From Pseudomonas sp. P8_229 (GTDB lineage: Bacteria > Pseudomonadota > Gammaproteobacteria > Pseudomonadales > Pseudomonadaceae): DNA of 64,000 nt. Below the pieces are notes generated by a model. The model searched no databases, had not been told where the DNA came from, and was given only the letters and a program-made list of their open reading frames with translations. Location of the stretch: contig NZ_CP125378.1 of assembly GCF_034008635.1 (NCBI RefSeq), forward strand, positions 6,138,501 to 6,202,500, in the 5' to 3' direction. This document shows positions 56,451 through 63,207 of the stretch, one piece after another (within the stretch, counting starts at the first letter, position 1; the number at the start of each line of letters is the position of its first letter). The position numbers and the translations under genes were made by a program.

Positions 56451-56488
56451 GCGGCTGTAACCTGTCAACTATGACAGTTTACAGCCGC
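56451..56488. repeat. Long near-perfect hairpin, 16 of 17 pairs
   Basis: GCGGCTGTAACCTGTCA and TGACAGTTTACAGCCGC pair with a single mismatch around a four-base loop ACTA. It contains the putative LuxR-type box at 56462-56477. It follows the DUF1345 gene and could also work as a terminator, though no T run follows. Confidence 0.85.
56460..56478 (+). promoter_or_regulatory. Putative LuxR-family box upstream of the 165-residue gene
   Basis: AACCTGTCA-ACTA-TGACAGT, read toward the gene at 56575. It shares T(A/T)ACCTGTCA-N4-TGACAGT with the site at 63087-63105 in the same polarity relative to its gene, and fits the CT-N12-AG form of pseudomonad quorum-sensing boxes. A weak -10 (CATACA, 56505-56510) follows about 27 bases later. 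Confidence 0.55.
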
Positions 56489-56574
56489 CTCCTGTTTGAG
56501 CTTCCATACAACATCCAGAAGTAGGACCGGTCAGTCTTTGGATGACTCTTACCATTCTGTATGGAGATAAACTC

Positions 56575-57072
56575 ATGAGCTACGCAGCCCGAGCCTACGC
56601 AACAACGTTTCCTGCGCAACCGTACTTGTCGGCCACCATCAATGGTGATGCCAATCCAAACTTCAGACACGTCAAGATCCCGCCATACAAAGATTTTCGC
56701 TCGACCTCTGTCCCTGCACTCGAGTTAAAAGACTACCCCAATGGCCGCTTTTATTGGCTGAGGGCTGGACAGACCGAAAATGGCTTGACACAGACGATTG
56801 AATTTGTCTTTGCGGCGAAGCCTTCGACAGGAACGTTTACACTATCCAAAAATATTGAAGATATCCGAGTGACCTACAATTCCAACCCGGTGAACGGTGA
56901 TTTACACATGGCCGAGAGCGGTAGCATCACGTTTGAATACAATGACATCGAAAAAACCCTGACCGGGACGTGGAGCGGTCTGTTTGATCACGGGGGCGCA
57001 GACGCTTCCGATCTGTTTCCGATTAATGGGGAGTTTTTTGTTAATACCGACCTCAGCAAGATCCGAAAATAA
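56575..57072 (+). CDS. Hypothetical protein, 165 residues
   Basis: I do not recognise this family. The protein has no signal peptide or membrane helix and alternates short polar and hydrophobic runs, as in a beta-sandwich (TIEFVFAAKPSTGTFTLSKN, GSITFEYNDIEKTLTGTWSG). It ends basic (LSKIRK). GGAG lies eight bases before the ATG at 56575. GC content and codon use are lower and more relaxed than in the neighbours, suggesting recent acquisition. It has its own palindromic promoter site upstream and an intrinsic terminator behind, so it is a single-gene unit at the left end of the accessory block. Confidence 0.75.
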   Translation: MSYAARAYATTFPAQPYLSATINGDANPNFRHVKIPPYKDFRSTSVPALELKDYPNGRFYWLRAGQTENGLTQTIEFVFAAKPSTGTFTLSKNIEDIRVTYNSNPVNGDLHMAESGSITFEYNDIEKTLTGTWSGLFDHGGADASDLFPINGEFFVNTDLSKIRK

Positions 57073-57091
57073 TTCGTCGACACTCCATAAT

Positions 57092-57121
57092 AAAAAAGGA
57101 AGCTTTCAAGCTTCCTTTTTT
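57092..57121. terminator. Bidirectional intrinsic terminator
   Basis: GGAAGCTT-TC-AAGCTTCC (57098-57115) with A6 on the left and T6 on the right. It ends the 165-residue gene on the plus strand and the autotransporter gene on the minus strand, whose stop is 15 bases beyond it. Confidence 0.92.
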
Positions 57122-57135
57122 ATTTCTGATTCTAT

Positions 57136-59745
57136 TTAAAAGTTATAACTCAGACCCACACTCCCACCCAGCTCCTGGTCGACTTTAGTGCCGCGGCTGG
57201 TGCCAACCTCGGCGTAAACCTGCCATTTTTTGTTGGCCGGAACCCAGTTCATTCCGCCAGTCAATTCCAGGCTGGTACTGGACAAGTCATTATTGAAACT
57301 GGTGTCGTTGACACTGAGGCGGTTGTTATTGACAAACTCGTGGCTGACGGCGGCGCGAAGACGCGGCTGCAGCTTGCTGCCATTGTCCAGCGTGAGCTCT
57401 CGCCCCACCGTCATGCCGACCTTGCCGAGTAGCGAGCGAGTTTCGTCGCTGTCCACTTGCAAGCCATTGTCCAGTTTGTAGCGCTTACCCTCAACGGCCG
57501 CTACCCCTATTTGTGCGGAAGGCTCAATGAAATACCCCCTGTTCAAAGGAATGTGCTTGCCGACTTCGACGGACCCGCTCAACCCCATGTTATCGAAGTT
57601 TCCTTTGGTTCGAGTGTCGTCGCTCAAGGTGACTTTGACATCGTTGTTGAAGCGGTTGATCTTGCCGACGGTATCCAGGTAATACCCGGTAGCTTGATCA
57701 AACCAGGTCAAGTAAAGGCCTGCATAACCGCTGCCAATCGTACCGGAACTGCCTCGCGCCAGATCCAGACGCGTGTTGCTGTACCCGCCAAAAACACCGA
57801 TCAACCACTGACCATCCCAAAATGGCAATGCTCTGTCCAACCCCACCGAGACACCTGTCTGGTTCTGATTGAAACCGTTACCGTAGGCGCCCTTTACGTT
57901 GTACTGATTACCATAGGTTCGAATCCAGAGACCGGATGAAGAGTCTTGACCATTCGAACTCAGTGCCCCGGCCGATTGTGCCACAGGCTGAGTGCCGGCC
58001 ATGCGTCGGTCTCCGAGGCGGGTATTGAGGGTTGTCATTTCAGAATAAATGACCGTGGGCGTGGTCCCGGAGATCGCGAGAGCAGTTTGAGACCCCGTGC
58101 TCGGTGTGGTCGCATCGGGTTTCAGAAACAGCCCCTCGCCCTCTTTTACCAGCTTGTAGGCCAGGGCGCCGACATCGACTTGTCCATTTTTCAGGGAAAA
58201 CTGCGCATCTCCGGAAGCGATGTTCCCCACCTTGACCGGCGCGCCACTGGCGGGCTCACTGGCGGTAGCCGCCACCACCAGTTGATGCTGGCCGGTTGCC
58301 GATTGGGTGACATTCAAAAAATCCGACTGAGCAGTACCCACATCCGAGCGCATCAAAAACTGACCCGTGCCCGATAAAGTGGCTATATCCAGCTGATTGT
58401 AGGCCTGGTCTGTTCCAAAACTCACTGTACCGCCCTGCATGTCCAGGCGAGTGACTGCGTTGTTGCCCACCATGTTCCATGAGGCACCACGGCTGATCGA
58501 CATATTGCCGACACCGGAAACAGCACCGTTGAATTGCGCATTGTTGTCCAGCACCACCGCTCCCGCGCCGCTGCCCTGGATATTGCCAGTGAGAACACTC
58601 TGGGTGTCGAGCTTTACCGAGTCGACATTGATCAGGTTGCCGTCCAGGGTCGCAGCGTTTCGCAACGAAACGCTGGCGACGCCGGAAATTGCGCCCTTGA
58701 ACTTCGCACTGTTATCCAGCGCCACTGTTCCTGCGCCGGAGCCCTGGATATTACCGGTGAGAATGCTGCGGGTATCAAGCGTGACCGAATCAACATTGAC
58801 CAGGTTGCCATCAAGGGTGGCGGCATTTCGCAACGAAACACTGGCGACACCACCCTCAGCGACTTCGATGTTCCCGGATAATTGGCTGTTGTCGGCCTGA
58901 AACTGCACAGCGGCTCCATCGTTCACTTCGAGGATATTGCCGTTACCCCCGATCAAACGAGAGCCGTTGTTGACATCGATCAGAACCGGCTGACCAGCGG
59001 GTGTTGCGAAATCGACAGTAATCGCCGCGCCACTGAGGCCCTCGACCGTGGCGCCATCCAGTATCAAATGACTTTGGCCAGTGACATCACCGGGATTCGC
59101 CACGGTGTCCTGCCCGAAAGTGACCCCATTGAGACCGCCGGTAATCTTGCTGCCGGCACTCACATTGGCATTCCCGCCAAACAGGGCCAACCCGACTCCG
59201 TCCGCATCCGTTGCGCTCACTTGGGTATTGATCAGGTTCAACGTGCTGAGTGAGGTCACCGCAGCACCGAATATCCCGCCGCGCAACGTACTGCCAGTGA
59301 CAGTAGCAGTGGATCCCACGGGGATCAGCAGATCACGGGCCAATGTCAGTGCCGCGCCCTGGCTGATCAATGTGCTGTTCGTGATGTTGGCCTGGCTGTC
59401 CGTCAACGCCAGAGCCGCTTCAAAACCTGTGCTGGTAACAGTAGATCCGGACAGGCTGACACGAGCGCCTGCGAATGCATCAATCTGTGATGTCGCGGCG
59501 GTATCGCCATTGAGCGCGCCACCACCGACTTGAATATCCAGTGCACTCGCGCTGTTGATATTGAGTGTAGCGCTCGCAGGAACAAACCAGGCTTCGGGTG
59601 TAGCGCCTGTGGAAACGGTCGCCACCTCCCCCGGCAGAAGGTTACGCGCATAAGCGGGCCCTGAAGTGGTCATTATCACCACAGCATAAGTGAGTGCACC
59701 GGTAAGTTTCATGACCGTCAGTCCCAGTATCTTTTCAAACTTCAT
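57136..59745 (-). CDS. Autotransporter with pertactin-like passenger
   Basis: About 869 residues. A signal peptide (MKFEKILGLTVMKLTGALTY to PAYA) precedes a passenger of short beta-helix repeats (SLSTLNLINTQVSATDADGV, GVASVSLRNAATLDGNL), a pertactin-like linker (MTTLNTRLGDRRM) and a C-terminal 12-strand barrel of about 270 residues from GLWIRTYGNQYNVKGAYG, ending in aromatic GLSYNF as outer-membrane proteins do. It is probably a surface adhesin. No catalytic or RGD motif was seen. ATG 59745 is preferred over 59805 because it opens the signal peptide. Two adjacent 56-residue passenger units are nearly identical. Confidence 0.9.
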   Translation of the reverse strand: MKFEKILGLTVMKLTGALTYAVVIMTTSGPAYARNLLPGEVATVSTGATPEAWFVPASATLNINSASALDIQVGGGALNGDTAATSQIDAFAGARVSLSGSTVTSTGFEAALALTDSQANITNSTLISQGAALTLARDLLIPVGSTATVTGSTLRGGIFGAAVTSLSTLNLINTQVSATDADGVGLALFGGNANVSAGSKITGGLNGVTFGQDTVANPGDVTGQSHLILDGATVEGLSGAAITVDFATPAGQPVLIDVNNGSRLIGGNGNILEVNDGAAVQFQADNSQLSGNIEVAEGGVASVSLRNAATLDGNLVNVDSVTLDTRSILTGNIQGSGAGTVALDNSAKFKGAISGVASVSLRNAATLDGNLINVDSVKLDTQSVLTGNIQGSGAGAVVLDNNAQFNGAVSGVGNMSISRGASWNMVGNNAVTRLDMQGGTVSFGTDQAYNQLDIATLSGTGQFLMRSDVGTAQSDFLNVTQSATGQHQLVVAATASEPASGAPVKVGNIASGDAQFSLKNGQVDVGALAYKLVKEGEGLFLKPDATTPSTGSQTALAISGTTPTVIYSEMTTLNTRLGDRRMAGTQPVAQSAGALSSNGQDSSSGLWIRTYGNQYNVKGAYGNGFNQNQTGVSVGLDRALPFWDGQWLIGVFGGYSNTRLDLARGSSGTIGSGYAGLYLTWFDQATGYYLDTVGKINRFNNDVKVTLSDDTRTKGNFDNMGLSGSVEVGKHIPLNRGYFIEPSAQIGVAAVEGKRYKLDNGLQVDSDETRSLLGKVGMTVGRELTLDNGSKLQPRLRAAVSHEFVNNNRLSVNDTSFNNDLSSTSLELTGGMNWVPANKKWQVYAEVGTSRGTKVDQELGGSVGLSYNF
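58513..58848 (-). repeat. 168-bp tandem duplication within the autotransporter passenger
   Basis: Bases 58681-58848 and 58513-58680 encode nearly the same 56 residues: GVASVSLRNAATLDGNLVNV and GVASVSLRNAATLDGNLINV, then SVTLDTRSILTGNIQGSGAG and SVKLDTQSVLTGNIQGSGAG. The frame is kept. The copies would add turns to the beta-helix. Confidence 0.9.
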
Positions 59746-59856
59746 AACAGCGGCTCTCTGAGTTTTGTCAGGACAGGAGAAAGACGGTTCGCAGTAAGGC
59801 TCCATCAGACGCCCATCGTTGGCGACGTCGGAGAATACCTACAACCTCGAATCATC

Positions 59857-59885
59857 TATGTAGGACTAATCCTCTTTATAGGTAA
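59857..59885 (-). promoter_or_regulatory. Autotransporter promoter with a palindrome in the spacer
   Basis: On the minus strand TTACCT and TACATA are 17 bases apart, and the spacer and -10 edge hold the near-perfect palindrome AGGATTAGTCCT (59862-59873). The gap between the autotransporter and the 694-residue gene downstream on this strand has no other clear signal apart from CCTACA/TGTAGG repeats near 59837-59864. Confidence 0.45.
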
Positions 59886-59991
59886 GGCTCATCCCTGCCG
59901 AATGAAGTGCCATCAACGTTTCCGAAGCCGGAACAACGGCACCGCCGGGAGAGCAGTGATCTCCCGGCGAATGCAGCCCCTGACATTCATA

Positions 59992-62076
59992 CTATGGCGC
60001 AGGATTCCAACCTGGTTCTGTCTCGCAGTACTTGAAGTCTCCGTTGAGCAGGTAGACGGTCATTTCCGTAACACCGGATGTAGGAACTGTCGGTGTCGAA
60101 TACCAGACTTTTACATAACCCGCGTAGAAGTCTGAAGGATCCGGAGTAGCGGGTGGTGGCCTTGGTACATTCCGCACCACCGGATCATAAGCCCCGACAT
60201 CAAAGATCATCCCGGCGGTCAACTCAGGCAGGGAAATGTTTCGGGTTCGGGTGAACTCCGTATCAGCCGGTGCCGGCGTCGCATAATCATCCGTGCGGAA
60301 CCCGCGCCAGTTGAATGTGACAGGCATACCATCGACAAAGTGGGGATTTGGCGGAATACGGAATCTGGCCACATGCTCTCCGGACACCAGGGTCAGACTT
60401 TCGCAAATAATATTCGGATCAGAAGCCCCATCTGCTGGTGGCCGCACGAACTGTGGCGGATCAAGATTGATGACCACCGTATTGACCGTCACCTCGGTTT
60501 CTATCGAAATCTGTTTGTTGTTACGGTTGGGGTTCTCATATACCCACCATACTTTTTTCTTTCCCAGACCGCCGGGGCCGACAATGCTGTAAGGCAGATC
60601 GATATCAATTATCGTATTGATATTTGTGGCGGTCATCAGCTTTGAACCGACAACGACCTCGCCTGCGTCACCCAGGTAAAATGCGGTGACCAGATCACCG
60701 GGTTCCGGGTCTGGGAATACCCCGCCACTTTCAGGTGATACATCAATAAATATCTTGGCGGTTTGATTGGCATCATGTGGGCCCAGCACATTATCGGTAA
60801 CAGGCGCTTGTCCCCGAACGATCGCCAGCTGGAACTCGGGATTGACAACTGGAGGTGGGTTAATCGGATCGACGATATAGGGTGGGTGCGTCGAAAAGTC
60901 AGTGTTTACGCTCGTATCCACATCACTGACGGAAATATTGTTGCGCATCAAATCGGCTGTGACCTGAACAGGCACCTCGTAAATCTGGCCGGTCTGATTA
61001 TCGAAATACTCCTTGCTCAAATCGCCCCATGGAATAGTGAAAACCAGTTTGTTCAGGATGCCAAATGGCAAGTCCTGGGCTGACTGACTGCCCCATTTCG
61101 CGCTCACCTCATCGGTATTGAGTGCGTTCACCGGCCGATCGACTTCTACGGTAACACCTGTACGCGCATCGTCCAGATTGATCAGCCCGTCATTGTTTGC
61201 CGGTACGTGCAGTGGCCCCAATGAGGGCAACGGCAGAAAGCGAGTGTTTTTGAAGCTTACTGATGTCGCGCTTATGTTGCCTGCAGCATCCTCAATTTCG
61301 AACCAGATAAAAGCCCTGCCACTGGTTATTTTCCTCAACTCGGCAGTCGGAATCAGCACCTCGCCATTGGTCGGCATGGGGTCATCGAAGAAAGCCGGCA
61401 CCTCCGGAGGATTGCTTCGTTGATTGGCCACATACAGCCGCACGTGGTCATCAGGTTGAGCATTGGGATACGTGGTGTTTATTACAACCCTCAACCCCAT
61501 CGCGCTACCCGGAAGAGCTGCCCAGGTATCGTCCAGATCGCCAGGGGCGTTGGGAAATGACACTGCCGGGATTGATTTGGCGCCGGGTCTTTGCCCGGGA
61601 TTGGGCGCAGTCTGAATCGGTTTTGCTTGCCAGGGTGCCGTGCGGTCAATCTGGTACTCCACGAAACCCGAAGTCAACGCATTAAAACCTCGCTCAAAGT
61701 ACACGCCGCGGACCCAGATTGTAGTCGGACCGACTGGTGTTGCGTTCTCCCCCAAATGTTCCGTGGGTATTTGAACCGGAAATTTAACCGGTCGTTGTGC
61801 CATATCCGGGAGGGTCAAGCGTGGCAGCCTTGTGTAGTCTGCGGGCGTCGGAACCGCAGGCGGTTGGGTTCGCGTGACATCTATTGTTACCTGATCACCA
61901 TTTTGCCGGTTATCAGGAACGGTTGTATCCAGTAATAGCTGAAGCGTCCCGCCCACGGCAATTGCAGCGATGGGAATGATATCGCCCTGCGGGCCGCGGC
62001 CATCCGGTAACTCGGGAGTTGGTGCCACCAAAATCCCACCGCCCTGCGCCGCAGTTCCAGCTTGATAACTTGTCAT
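59992..62076 (-). CDS. Large hypothetical protein with Ig-like segments, 694 residues
   Basis: I do not recognise a named family. It has no signal peptide or membrane helix and consists of Pro/Asn/Asp-rich beta-sandwich-like stretches, several with bacterial Ig-like features (GDQVTIDVTRTQPP, DHVRLYVANQRSNPPEVP, VEVDRPVNALNTDEVSAKWG, GMPVTFNWRGFRTDDYATP). The last block resembles DVISLSWRGWRSLNG in the gene just upstream, so the two are related. GGAG lies eight bases before the ATG. It is second in a minus-strand pair and has lower GC than the core genome. Without a signal peptide, export (if any) would need another route. Confidence 0.75.
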   Translation of the reverse strand: MTSYQAGTAAQGGGILVAPTPELPDGRGPQGDIIPIAAIAVGGTLQLLLDTTVPDNRQNGDQVTIDVTRTQPPAVPTPADYTRLPRLTLPDMAQRPVKFPVQIPTEHLGENATPVGPTTIWVRGVYFERGFNALTSGFVEYQIDRTAPWQAKPIQTAPNPGQRPGAKSIPAVSFPNAPGDLDDTWAALPGSAMGLRVVINTTYPNAQPDDHVRLYVANQRSNPPEVPAFFDDPMPTNGEVLIPTAELRKITSGRAFIWFEIEDAAGNISATSVSFKNTRFLPLPSLGPLHVPANNDGLINLDDARTGVTVEVDRPVNALNTDEVSAKWGSQSAQDLPFGILNKLVFTIPWGDLSKEYFDNQTGQIYEVPVQVTADLMRNNISVSDVDTSVNTDFSTHPPYIVDPINPPPVVNPEFQLAIVRGQAPVTDNVLGPHDANQTAKIFIDVSPESGGVFPDPEPGDLVTAFYLGDAGEVVVGSKLMTATNINTIIDIDLPYSIVGPGGLGKKKVWWVYENPNRNNKQISIETEVTVNTVVINLDPPQFVRPPADGASDPNIICESLTLVSGEHVARFRIPPNPHFVDGMPVTFNWRGFRTDDYATPAPADTEFTRTRNISLPELTAGMIFDVGAYDPVVRNVPRPPPATPDPSDFYAGYVKVWYSTPTVPTSGVTEMTVYLLNGDFKYCETEPGWNPAP

Positions 62077-62094
62077 GTGTTTTCTCCAATATTC

Positions 62095-63038
62095 TTAACA
62101 ATGGATATCAATACTTCCTTCATCGACAAGGGCGTTATCGCCGACAGCAGTCGCCTTTCTGTTACAGCAAATCGTCATGTCATCCAGCGTGCACTCGAGC
62201 AAAAACCAGGAGTACCCGGAATCACTCTGTCTATTTTCACCAGGCCTGTAAAAGAACTGAAAATTGAAACTCCGTTTCGCACTAACAGGTATTCGGTCGT
62301 CGCAGAATCGTTCTCGCGCATAGGTTCGATGTGTGTAGCAAACGGTCTTATTACAATTAAGACCGGTTTTTTGTTGGCTACATCCGTTACAGCAGCAGTA
62401 AAGGTATATAAGGGGGTTAACGCAGCTCCCGTTCCATTCAGCGAACGCCATCCTCGCCAGCTGAGACTGATCACATCGCCCACTCGGAAAAGATCATTGA
62501 ACGGAATCAGAGTGCGTATGCCCTCCCAGATAAATAAAGCATCAGGATCCAGAGGATTGTTTTTTGTGCAGCCGATATAGCCCCAGAGATCTGCATCCGG
62601 AAACGTTGACTCTTTCAACAACTGAGGTGGAGGTGTAATTGCAAACGTCAGGCGCCGTGACGGTGACGTTGTCGCATTGATCGAGCGCACGGTGTAAAAA
62701 ACTTCGAACGTAGCCAGATTGGGCAGCGACAACGGCGCTATTGGAATATGAAACTCGGGGGCATTGTCGGCAGCACTATATTCTGCCCACGCGACAAACT
62801 TCGGATTGCCGACGATAAAGATCTCGACGCGATCAATACGCGTATCTACAGGAAACGCTGGCCAGATATCGATGATGCAGACAATTCCGTTTTGCTTCGC
62901 ATCCGGTGGTAATGTCCCGGCCGGATCCGACGGGTCGACGCCTTCGAATCGAGGCGGATTGAGTAAAATGCCTGCATTGACAGCGCTGCTTGTCACATGG
63001 GGGTCATCGGCTGACATGGATACTGTCTCGCTCTTCAT
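62095..63038 (-). pseudogene. Hypothetical protein related to the 694-residue neighbour, apparent frameshift near its end
   Basis: The open frame from 63038 gives 287 residues (stop 62175-62177) of beta-rich sequence with DVISLSWRGWRSLNG and PVLIVIRPFATHIEPMR. It ends in an odd tail, GFCSSARWMT. One base slip at an A5/T5 run (62201-62205) joins a second frame reading FLLECTLDDMTICCNRKATAV to IDIHC, which stops at 62095, just before the next ribosome site. A lost T in a T6 run explains this. Starts at 63038 or 63017 are possible. The gene has a palindromic promoter site upstream and is first of the pair. Function unknown; it may still work if the tail is dispensable. Confidence 0.65.
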
Positions 63039-63086
63039 TCGCCATTCACGTGGAAGAAATTAAACGCCCGTATCCAGTTGTTGCCT

Positions 63087-63105
63087 ACTGTCAGATCTGA
63101 CAGGT
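63087..63105 (-). promoter_or_regulatory. Putative LuxR-family box upstream of the 62-63 kb hypothetical genes
   Basis: Read toward the gene on the minus strand: TACCTGTCA-GATC-TGACAGT, with a perfect 16-bp palindrome at 63088-63103. A good -10 (TTTAAT, 63058-63063 on the minus strand) follows 23 to 24 bases later, placing the box centre near -44, the usual place for LuxR-type activation. Confidence 0.6.
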
Positions 63106-63189: not shown

Positions 63190-63207
63190 TCTGAAACCGG
63201 TTTCAGA
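63190..63207. promoter_or_regulatory. PtxS operator
   Basis: TCTGAAACCGGTTTCAGA is a perfect 18-bp palindrome containing TGAAACCGGTTTCA, the operator described for PtxS. It ends 18 bases before the ptxS start, so it should mediate self-repression, relieved by 2-ketogluconate. Confidence 0.9.

Follow-up and report, generated by a model that had tools for sequence, protein, structure and literature searches.

A LuxR-type promoter box upstream of dispersed genes in Pseudomonas and the LuxR solo that probably reads it

Palindromes of the same form stand upstream of both outer genes of an accessory gene block in Pseudomonas sp. P8_229, which raises the question of whether these genes share a regulator and, if so, which one. 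The window analyzed here is the 64,000-base stretch 6138501-6202500 of the source genome (G000), a single contig of 6,365,050 bases. An earlier note on this window had assigned the block to one regulon under a LuxR-family regulator, through quorum sensing or a LuxR solo. The las-rhl boxes of LasR, RhlR and QscR in P. aeruginosa are CT-N12-AG dyads that overlap the -35 region and have the half-site CTGCCA, and a CT-N12-AG dyad near -43 is a hallmark of LuxR-type activators. Judging from sequence comparisons, we consider it likely that both palindromes represent lux boxes of the las/rhl type, that they belong to a regulon found across much of Pseudomonas and that they are read by a LuxR solo whose gene is flanked by fpr and rlmG. 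Both palindromes were found where the earlier note had placed them, together with the following elements (window coordinates):

56460..56478, + strand: box 1, ACCTGTCA-ACTA-TGACAGT (whole site ACCTGTCAACTATGACAGT), 97 bases before the ATG of the gene for a 165-residue protein
63087..63105, - strand: box 2, ACCTGTCA-GATC-TGACAGT(AG) (whole site ACCTGTCAGATCTGACAGT), upstream of the gene for a 287-residue protein
56451..56488, no strand: longer inverted repeat of 38 bases that encloses box 1
63059..63064, - strand: -10 hexamer TTTAAT behind box 2, beginning 31 bases from the dyad center

An imperfect CT-N12-AG dyad of about 18-20 bases, as in the las-rhl boxes, is present (CT-GTCAGATCTGAC-AG). 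The window holds no further copy, since a search with up to three mismatches gave four matches, i.e., the two places on both strands. Within the window itself the pair has modest significance, as 4 of 100 shuffles also reached four matches at this threshold. In G000 as a whole, there are 20 exact copies of the core CTGTCAN4TGACAG, whereas base composition predicts 0.29 and the reversed control does not occur. All 24 sites whose flanks were read (20 exact and 4 with one mismatch) stand 48-135 bases ahead of the start of an open reading frame (ORF) and serve 25 genes; for this reading the ORFs were picked by eye, the one-mismatch place at 442608 was left out and one-mismatch core places were not exhaustively covered. 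Across 249 Pseudomonas genomes there are 1668 boxes, against approximately 22 for the reversed control (summed by eye), with at least one box in 180 genomes and up to 35 in a single genome. Scanned genome-wide, the motif thus lies far above chance and, at all sites read, ahead of ORF starts. The boxes appear to be real promoter elements rather than chance matches, and the pair in the window belongs to a larger set.

The promoters of the 287-residue protein family, matched in 95 of the 249 genomes, show the geometry of the box most clearly. An exact box lies upstream in 28 of the 30 best loci of the family (its own locus and 29 homologues with 31-68% identity); the two unboxed loci are those of G112, with no box, and G046, with one mismatch. 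Comparison with the promoters of homologues thus upheld the site. All 28 boxes share one polarity, (A/C)CCTGTCA-N4-TGACAGT(A/T)G toward the gene. The family box has the form ACCTGTCA-GATM-TGACAGTAG, and its center is 31 bases from the -10 hexamer, i.e., near -43. The sequence C/T-C/T-TAAT is found exactly 31 bases from the dyad center in all 28 boxed promoters, and CGGT stands at a fixed upstream position in 27 of them. The good -10 claimed for box 2 is accordingly present (TTTAAT, 63064-63059, - strand), and box 2 and the 27 homologous promoters place the dyad center near -42.5 of a sigma-70 promoter, as in lux and las-rhl boxes. A scan of named genomes with ACCTGTCAGATNTGACAGTAG returned at least 119 stretches, of which the 80 listed are all from Pseudomonas. 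Offset 31 has at least four of the six TATAAT bases in 61% of the 83 sites in these 80 loci, whereas the remaining offsets between 10 and 53 do so in 0-11%; the set includes near relatives, and its sites are not all independent. In G000, 8 of the 25 sites have a -10 at offsets 31-32.

The two palindromes had also been described as sharing one polarity toward their own genes. This stands for box 2, whose polarity is identical in the 27 other boxed homologous promoters, but is weak for box 1: in three relatives the box there is symmetrical (AACTGTCA...TGACAGTTT) and enclosed in a longer palindrome, so that the polarity hangs on a single base. The CTGTCAN4TGACAG core of box 1 is retained in all four genomes that have the 165-residue gene, and the outer arms of the surrounding repeat vary in a compensating fashion in G034, G230 and G241. 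The 38-base repeat at 56451-56488 could alternatively work as a transcribed hairpin.

With respect to the genes served, 57 of the 82 ORFs downstream of the listed named-genome sites form one single-linkage blast cluster, which the 287-residue protein of the window matches, and 8 of the 82 are TcA-like. By these similarities, the predicted targets belong mostly to one immunoglobulin (Ig)-like superfamily. The boxed genes of G000 are as follows:

the 165-residue and 287-residue genes of the window
genes for Ig-like proteins of 463, 1096 and >999 residues (Pfam Big_6 for the last two, blast links for the 463-residue protein)
the Tc-toxin locus at 1.50-1.53 Mb, with boxes ahead of TcA-like, Ig-like and TcB-like genes (VRP1, TcA_TcB_BD, SpvB and TcdB_mid domains)
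genes for a tyrosinase, a SET-domain protein and a DUF6252-like protein (slightly under its cut-off)
genes for a GtrA-like protein, a thioredoxin-like protein and a lytic-transglycosylase-like ORF (reading by eye)
the gene for a BvgA/RocA-like response regulator (L041:3182-3808, G000:5131781-5132404), beside a receiver-EAL-like ORF
several genes for proteins without a family
the divergent LuxI/LuxR pair at 4.066 Mb, with the box between both genes

Among the exact sites of G000, the box center is GATC/GATA in 11 of 20 and TTTC in none. Three near-identical one-mismatch boxes, ACCTGTAATTTCTGACAGTAGAC, at 1664795, 2419252 and 5778576 (L028:2996, L032:3053 and L043:3077) precede the GtrA-like, tyrosinase and thioredoxin-like genes, and their center, TTTC, is typical of other genomes. 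Antisense to a boxed, very large Ig-repeat gene are four same-start ORFs with a 288-base period (L042:116-1249, approximately G000 5531215-5532348), which correspond to near-identical repeats within that gene.

A look for LuxR and LuxI genes in G000 gave the LuxI/LuxR pair at 4.066 Mb and three LuxR proteins with an autoinducer domain, including one at 5618757 and the solo at C1:2058284-2059009. The solo is of the PpoR family, also called subgroup A, and has fpr on one side and an rlmG-type methyltransferase ORF on the other (names by reading), flanks that define the subgroup A solos (PMC8546723) and PpoR (PMC10134790). Subgroup A solos are described for almost all fluorescent Pseudomonas species analyzed (PMC8546723). 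The solo of G000 has PF03472 above its cut-off, a LuxR-type helix-turn-helix in the alignment and no adjoining luxI, and fpr and rlmG flank all 30 loci of the closest solos. Its closest solved structure is QscR (E 1e-35, matched over nearly the whole length). Because it retains all six canonical residues of the acyl-homoserine lactone (AHL) pocket (W57, Y61, D70, P71, W85 and G113 in TraR numbering, with columns chosen by motif in one sequence), it is probably AHL-responsive.

For the same 249 genomes, the distribution of the solo was set beside that of the response regulator and the number of boxes; E-values and counts were entered manually. Close orthologues of the solo (E<=1e-51, a cut set after the data had been seen) are found in 119 genomes, none without boxes and 117 with at least three (mean 12.4), compared with 69 boxless genomes and 23 with at least three among the other 130 (mean 1.4). 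At a cut of 1e-45 the boxless genomes are 11 of 138 vs. 58 of 111. The fpr-rlmG locus of G201 (L380:1102-2009) holds only remnants of a solo, although both flanking genes and the response regulator are still present; in G221, the response regulator is present, no intact solo was found and the fpr-rlmG locus was not seen. Each of these genomes has two sites with other centers, and none of the four sites precedes a homologue of a known target. This co-distribution is circumstantial evidence for the identity of the regulator. The dyad, its fixed place before the -10, its conservation in homologous promoters and the co-distribution together favor a regulon under a LuxR-family regulator, as the earlier note had proposed, and the reader of the box is probably the solo between fpr and rlmG.

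Several observations weigh against this assignment. As a marker of boxes, the response regulator almost equals the solo (Spearman coefficient 0.74 vs. 0.75), and phylogeny confounds the co-distribution counts. Zero-box genomes, too, can carry an fpr-rlmG solo, of a divergent kind (8 loci, 30-37% identity), and the gene by itself is therefore insufficient; the divergent solos extracted have yet another recognition helix. G178 has 18 sites despite a split solo, and none of the solo loci examined has a box at the solo gene itself. Behind box 1 there is no -10 at offset 31-32, so that a center near -42.5 is not found there; box 1 is a probable member of the regulon, less certain than box 2. In their available parts, the transcriptome data for PpoR and PplR do not point to boxed targets, and the genomes concerned are not shown to be box-bearing (PMC2703642, PMC11543582).

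A further difficulty comes from genomes that lack the solo. Nine such genomes with 5-10 boxes were examined (G018, G020, G022, G068, G085, G126, G152, G184 and G195; others with 3-6 were left out), and 10 of their 15 fetched sites precede homologues of known targets, i.e., nine of the Ig-like superfamily and one of a 303-residue protein of G000, with a weak match at one further site. The solo is therefore dispensable in those genomes. Their boxes mostly differ at the center: TTTC/GAAA is the commonest center in seven of the nine and tied in G020, and G022 has CTTC/GAAG (6 of 10). A hexamer ending in AAT stands at offset 31 in most of the nine. A different LuxR, with the helix type SEATVKxHxKSIYxKLG, is found in 12 exception genomes, including eight of the nine examined (that of G022 was not extractable), and in one locus it adjoins an ORF read as an enolase-phosphatase. 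Among genomes with a solo orthologue, G037, G044 and G070 have the helix TxRTVGFHMSTIMRKxG, and G037 has the TTTC/GAAA center in six of eight listed sites (22 in all). These observations, in which box centers are tallied for some genomes and from the first listed places, fit a coevolution of regulator and box, in which another helix or another LuxR goes with another center (GATM vs. TTTC) at the same genes. We infer that in the solo-lacking set another type of LuxR serves the same promoters via TTTC-centered boxes.

Given its strength as a marker, the BvgA/RocA-like response regulator itself might bind the box and control its own gene. Of 30 loci of this gene, 19 have a box approximately 80-115 bases ahead of it, the 11 unboxed loci being mostly weaker matches in box-poor genomes, and its co-distribution with boxes comes close to that of the solo. 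Against it are 22 genomes that have the solo without a close response regulator and still average 15.8 boxes, with none at zero, although some of them may hold diverged response regulators (G016 and G210 have a box before theirs). Moreover, G201 and G221 have the response regulator yet lack the regulon. Seven genomes have the response regulator without a close solo (mean 5.4 boxes): four just under the cut, one (G088) with a split solo, plus G201 and G221. The discordant genomes weaken the response regulator as the driver, and we regard this explanation as unlikely.

It is similarly improbable that a different transcription factor common to the box-bearing genomes reads the box. The comparison covered autoinducer-domain LuxR proteins, LuxI and a single response regulator, matching phyletic patterns do not reveal which protein binds, and solo-lacking genomes can retain boxed promoters. 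A CT-N12-AG dyad near -43, on the other hand, points to a LuxR-type activator, and decay of the solo accompanies absence of the regulon in G201.

Ordinary quorum sensing by the strain's own LuxI/LuxR pair was the other half of the earlier proposal. At 4.066 Mb, the region separating LuxI (PF00765) from a divergent LuxR (PF03472 and PF00196) contains CCTGTCACCCTTGACAG, at distances of 59 and 76 bases from the two starts, and LuxI-bearing genomes have somewhat more boxes (mean 9.6 vs. 6.0, Mann-Whitney p 0.004). However, LuxI homologues occur in only 49 of the 249 genomes vs. boxes in 180, and many genomes have 20-34 boxes without LuxI. The homologues are thus poor predictors of boxes and do not accompany them throughout; on this distribution we reject the pair as the driver, a role that we consider very improbable, and of the two proposals the solo fits better. 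In G000 the pair may instead be a target or partner, and its boxed divergent promoter points to cross-talk of the solo with LuxI/LuxR. The LuxI of this pair (both genes at L037:5430-6859, G000 4065829-4067258) is distant from other LuxI of the genus, the best-scoring being 45% identical and one partial match 50%.

It is scarcely credible that these sequences represent a mobile repeat or act as hairpin terminators: several sites, box 1 included, run into longer palindromes, but flanks vary between genes without the marks of a mobile or repetitive extragenic palindromic element, core and -10 distance are constant and the sites read precede starts, so that flanks and geometry rule this explanation out.

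The block in the window contains four genes:

56575..57072, + strand: 165-residue protein, predicted beta-rich, no Pfam family, present in 4 of 249 genomes
57136..59805, - strand: autotransporter with a pertactin-like passenger and a beta-barrel
59992..62076, - strand: 694-residue protein, second gene behind box 2
62175..63038, - strand: 287-residue protein with predicted tandem Ig/fibronectin type III (FN3)-like domains, type member of the main target family

The whole block, i.e., the boxed 165-residue gene convergent with the boxed 287-residue gene, the 694-residue gene and the autotransporter gene, recurs in G034 (where two ORFs are each broken in two), G230 and G241, and thus occurs in 4 of 249 genomes. 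Its description as one regulon holds in so far as both outer genes are boxed in all four. The regulon nevertheless extends over some 20 loci chromosome-wide, and the window scan found no box directly ahead of the autotransporter or 694-residue gene. The latter is probably transcribed by read-through from the 287-residue gene. In six fetched relatives (not aligned), the homologue of the 287-residue protein sits inside an open frame of 945-1046 residues, which suggests that the homologues of both proteins are fused there. Translation of the 287-residue gene probably begins at codon 8 (ATG, 63017) rather than at 63038, because this ATG is nearly invariant among 25 aligned sequences. The model of the 287-residue protein has tandem Ig/FN3-like sandwiches (predicted local distance difference test, pLDDT, 85; predicted template modeling score, pTM, 0.54), and the nearest PDB matches among the 50 listed are adhesin and FN3 domains with template modeling scores of 0.20-0.35 by query length; the fold may be called Ig/FN3-like at the level of class only. 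The model of the 165-residue protein is beta-rich (pLDDT 85, pTM 0.80), and a fold search of PDB gave no match under E 0.001. Close by, a perfect palindrome, TGAAACCGGTTTCA, lies at 63192-63205, just ahead of a LacI-like regulator ORF from 63226 (+ strand); we take the two to resemble the PtxS operator and gene.

If the fpr-rlmG solo is the reader, a LuxR-type dimer would bind ACCTGTCA-GATM-TGACAGTAG centered near -43, where the box is observed, and would recruit RNA polymerase to the YYTAAT -10. The solo would respond to AHLs from neighbors or, in G000, from the strain's own LuxI, and would activate the genes for Ig-like repeat proteins as well as those for Tc toxins, a tyrosinase and others. 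A second tier may follow via the response-regulator gene, which is boxed in most of the box-bearing genomes examined and is possibly such a tier of the regulon. We tentatively put forward, as a possibility about which we remain somewhat doubtful, a largely LuxI-independent solo circuit in the P. fluorescens group, i.e., an "eavesdropping" switch for a dispersed surface or secreted arsenal (Ig-like, Tc-toxin, tyrosinase and small beta-rich proteins) with coevolution of promoter and regulator. Calling these targets an arsenal is a guess based on the association with Tc genes. With the box, direct targets can be predicted for each genome along with the positions of their promoters, and the solo becomes connected with Tc-toxin clusters and with a large uncharacterized Ig-like family. 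The GATM and TTTC promoters offer a natural experiment, in which one promoter set would have changed hands between two LuxR-type regulators.

The exact string CTGTCAGATCTGACAG was not found by literature text search, and CTGTCAGAT in combination with Pseudomonas and LuxR was found only as part of a primer. No mention of the box was found in the literature searched, a coverage outside which most subscription papers and preprints fall. As far as these searches reach, the regulon is new, and its kind, a LuxR-type box regulon, is already known.

Among known systems, PpoR and the other subgroup A solos share with this solo the fpr-rlmG locus, the AHL-receptor architecture and the lack of an adjoining LuxI (PMC2703642, PMC11543582, PMC10134790, PMC8546723). 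PpoR and PplR, P. putida-type relatives, are reported to bind AHLs and to alter, directly or indirectly, the expression of 62 and 84 genes, respectively (PMC2703642, PMC11543582), and for the subgroup A member Ppu16R the available text notes no direct evidence of gene targets or AHL binding (PMC8546723). They differ in that no DNA box was noticed for them; "lux box" and "palindrom" are absent from the PpoR paper (PMC2703642). The PsaR1-type LuxR solo of P. syringae pv. actinidiae has an enolase-phosphatase neighbor (PMC10134790). By this neighbor, seen in one locus, it is likely the LuxR of the TTTC-box genomes, to whose boxes it would then be linked; it differs from the fpr-rlmG solo in its locus, its recognition helix and its sequence (25-29% identity over most of the aligned length). 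The Tc toxin clusters of the P. fluorescens group include TcA/TcB-type genes such as those that stand behind boxes here, in contrast to which the main text of their description does not contain "LuxR," "promoter" or "quorum" (PMC5006985).

The las-rhl boxes of P. aeruginosa share with the boxes described here the dyad form and the overlap with -35, and among solved structures QscR comes closest to the solo. In contrast to them, the boxes here have the half-site CTGTCA and a constant right extension, AGTAG, need no cognate LuxI and stand before other targets.

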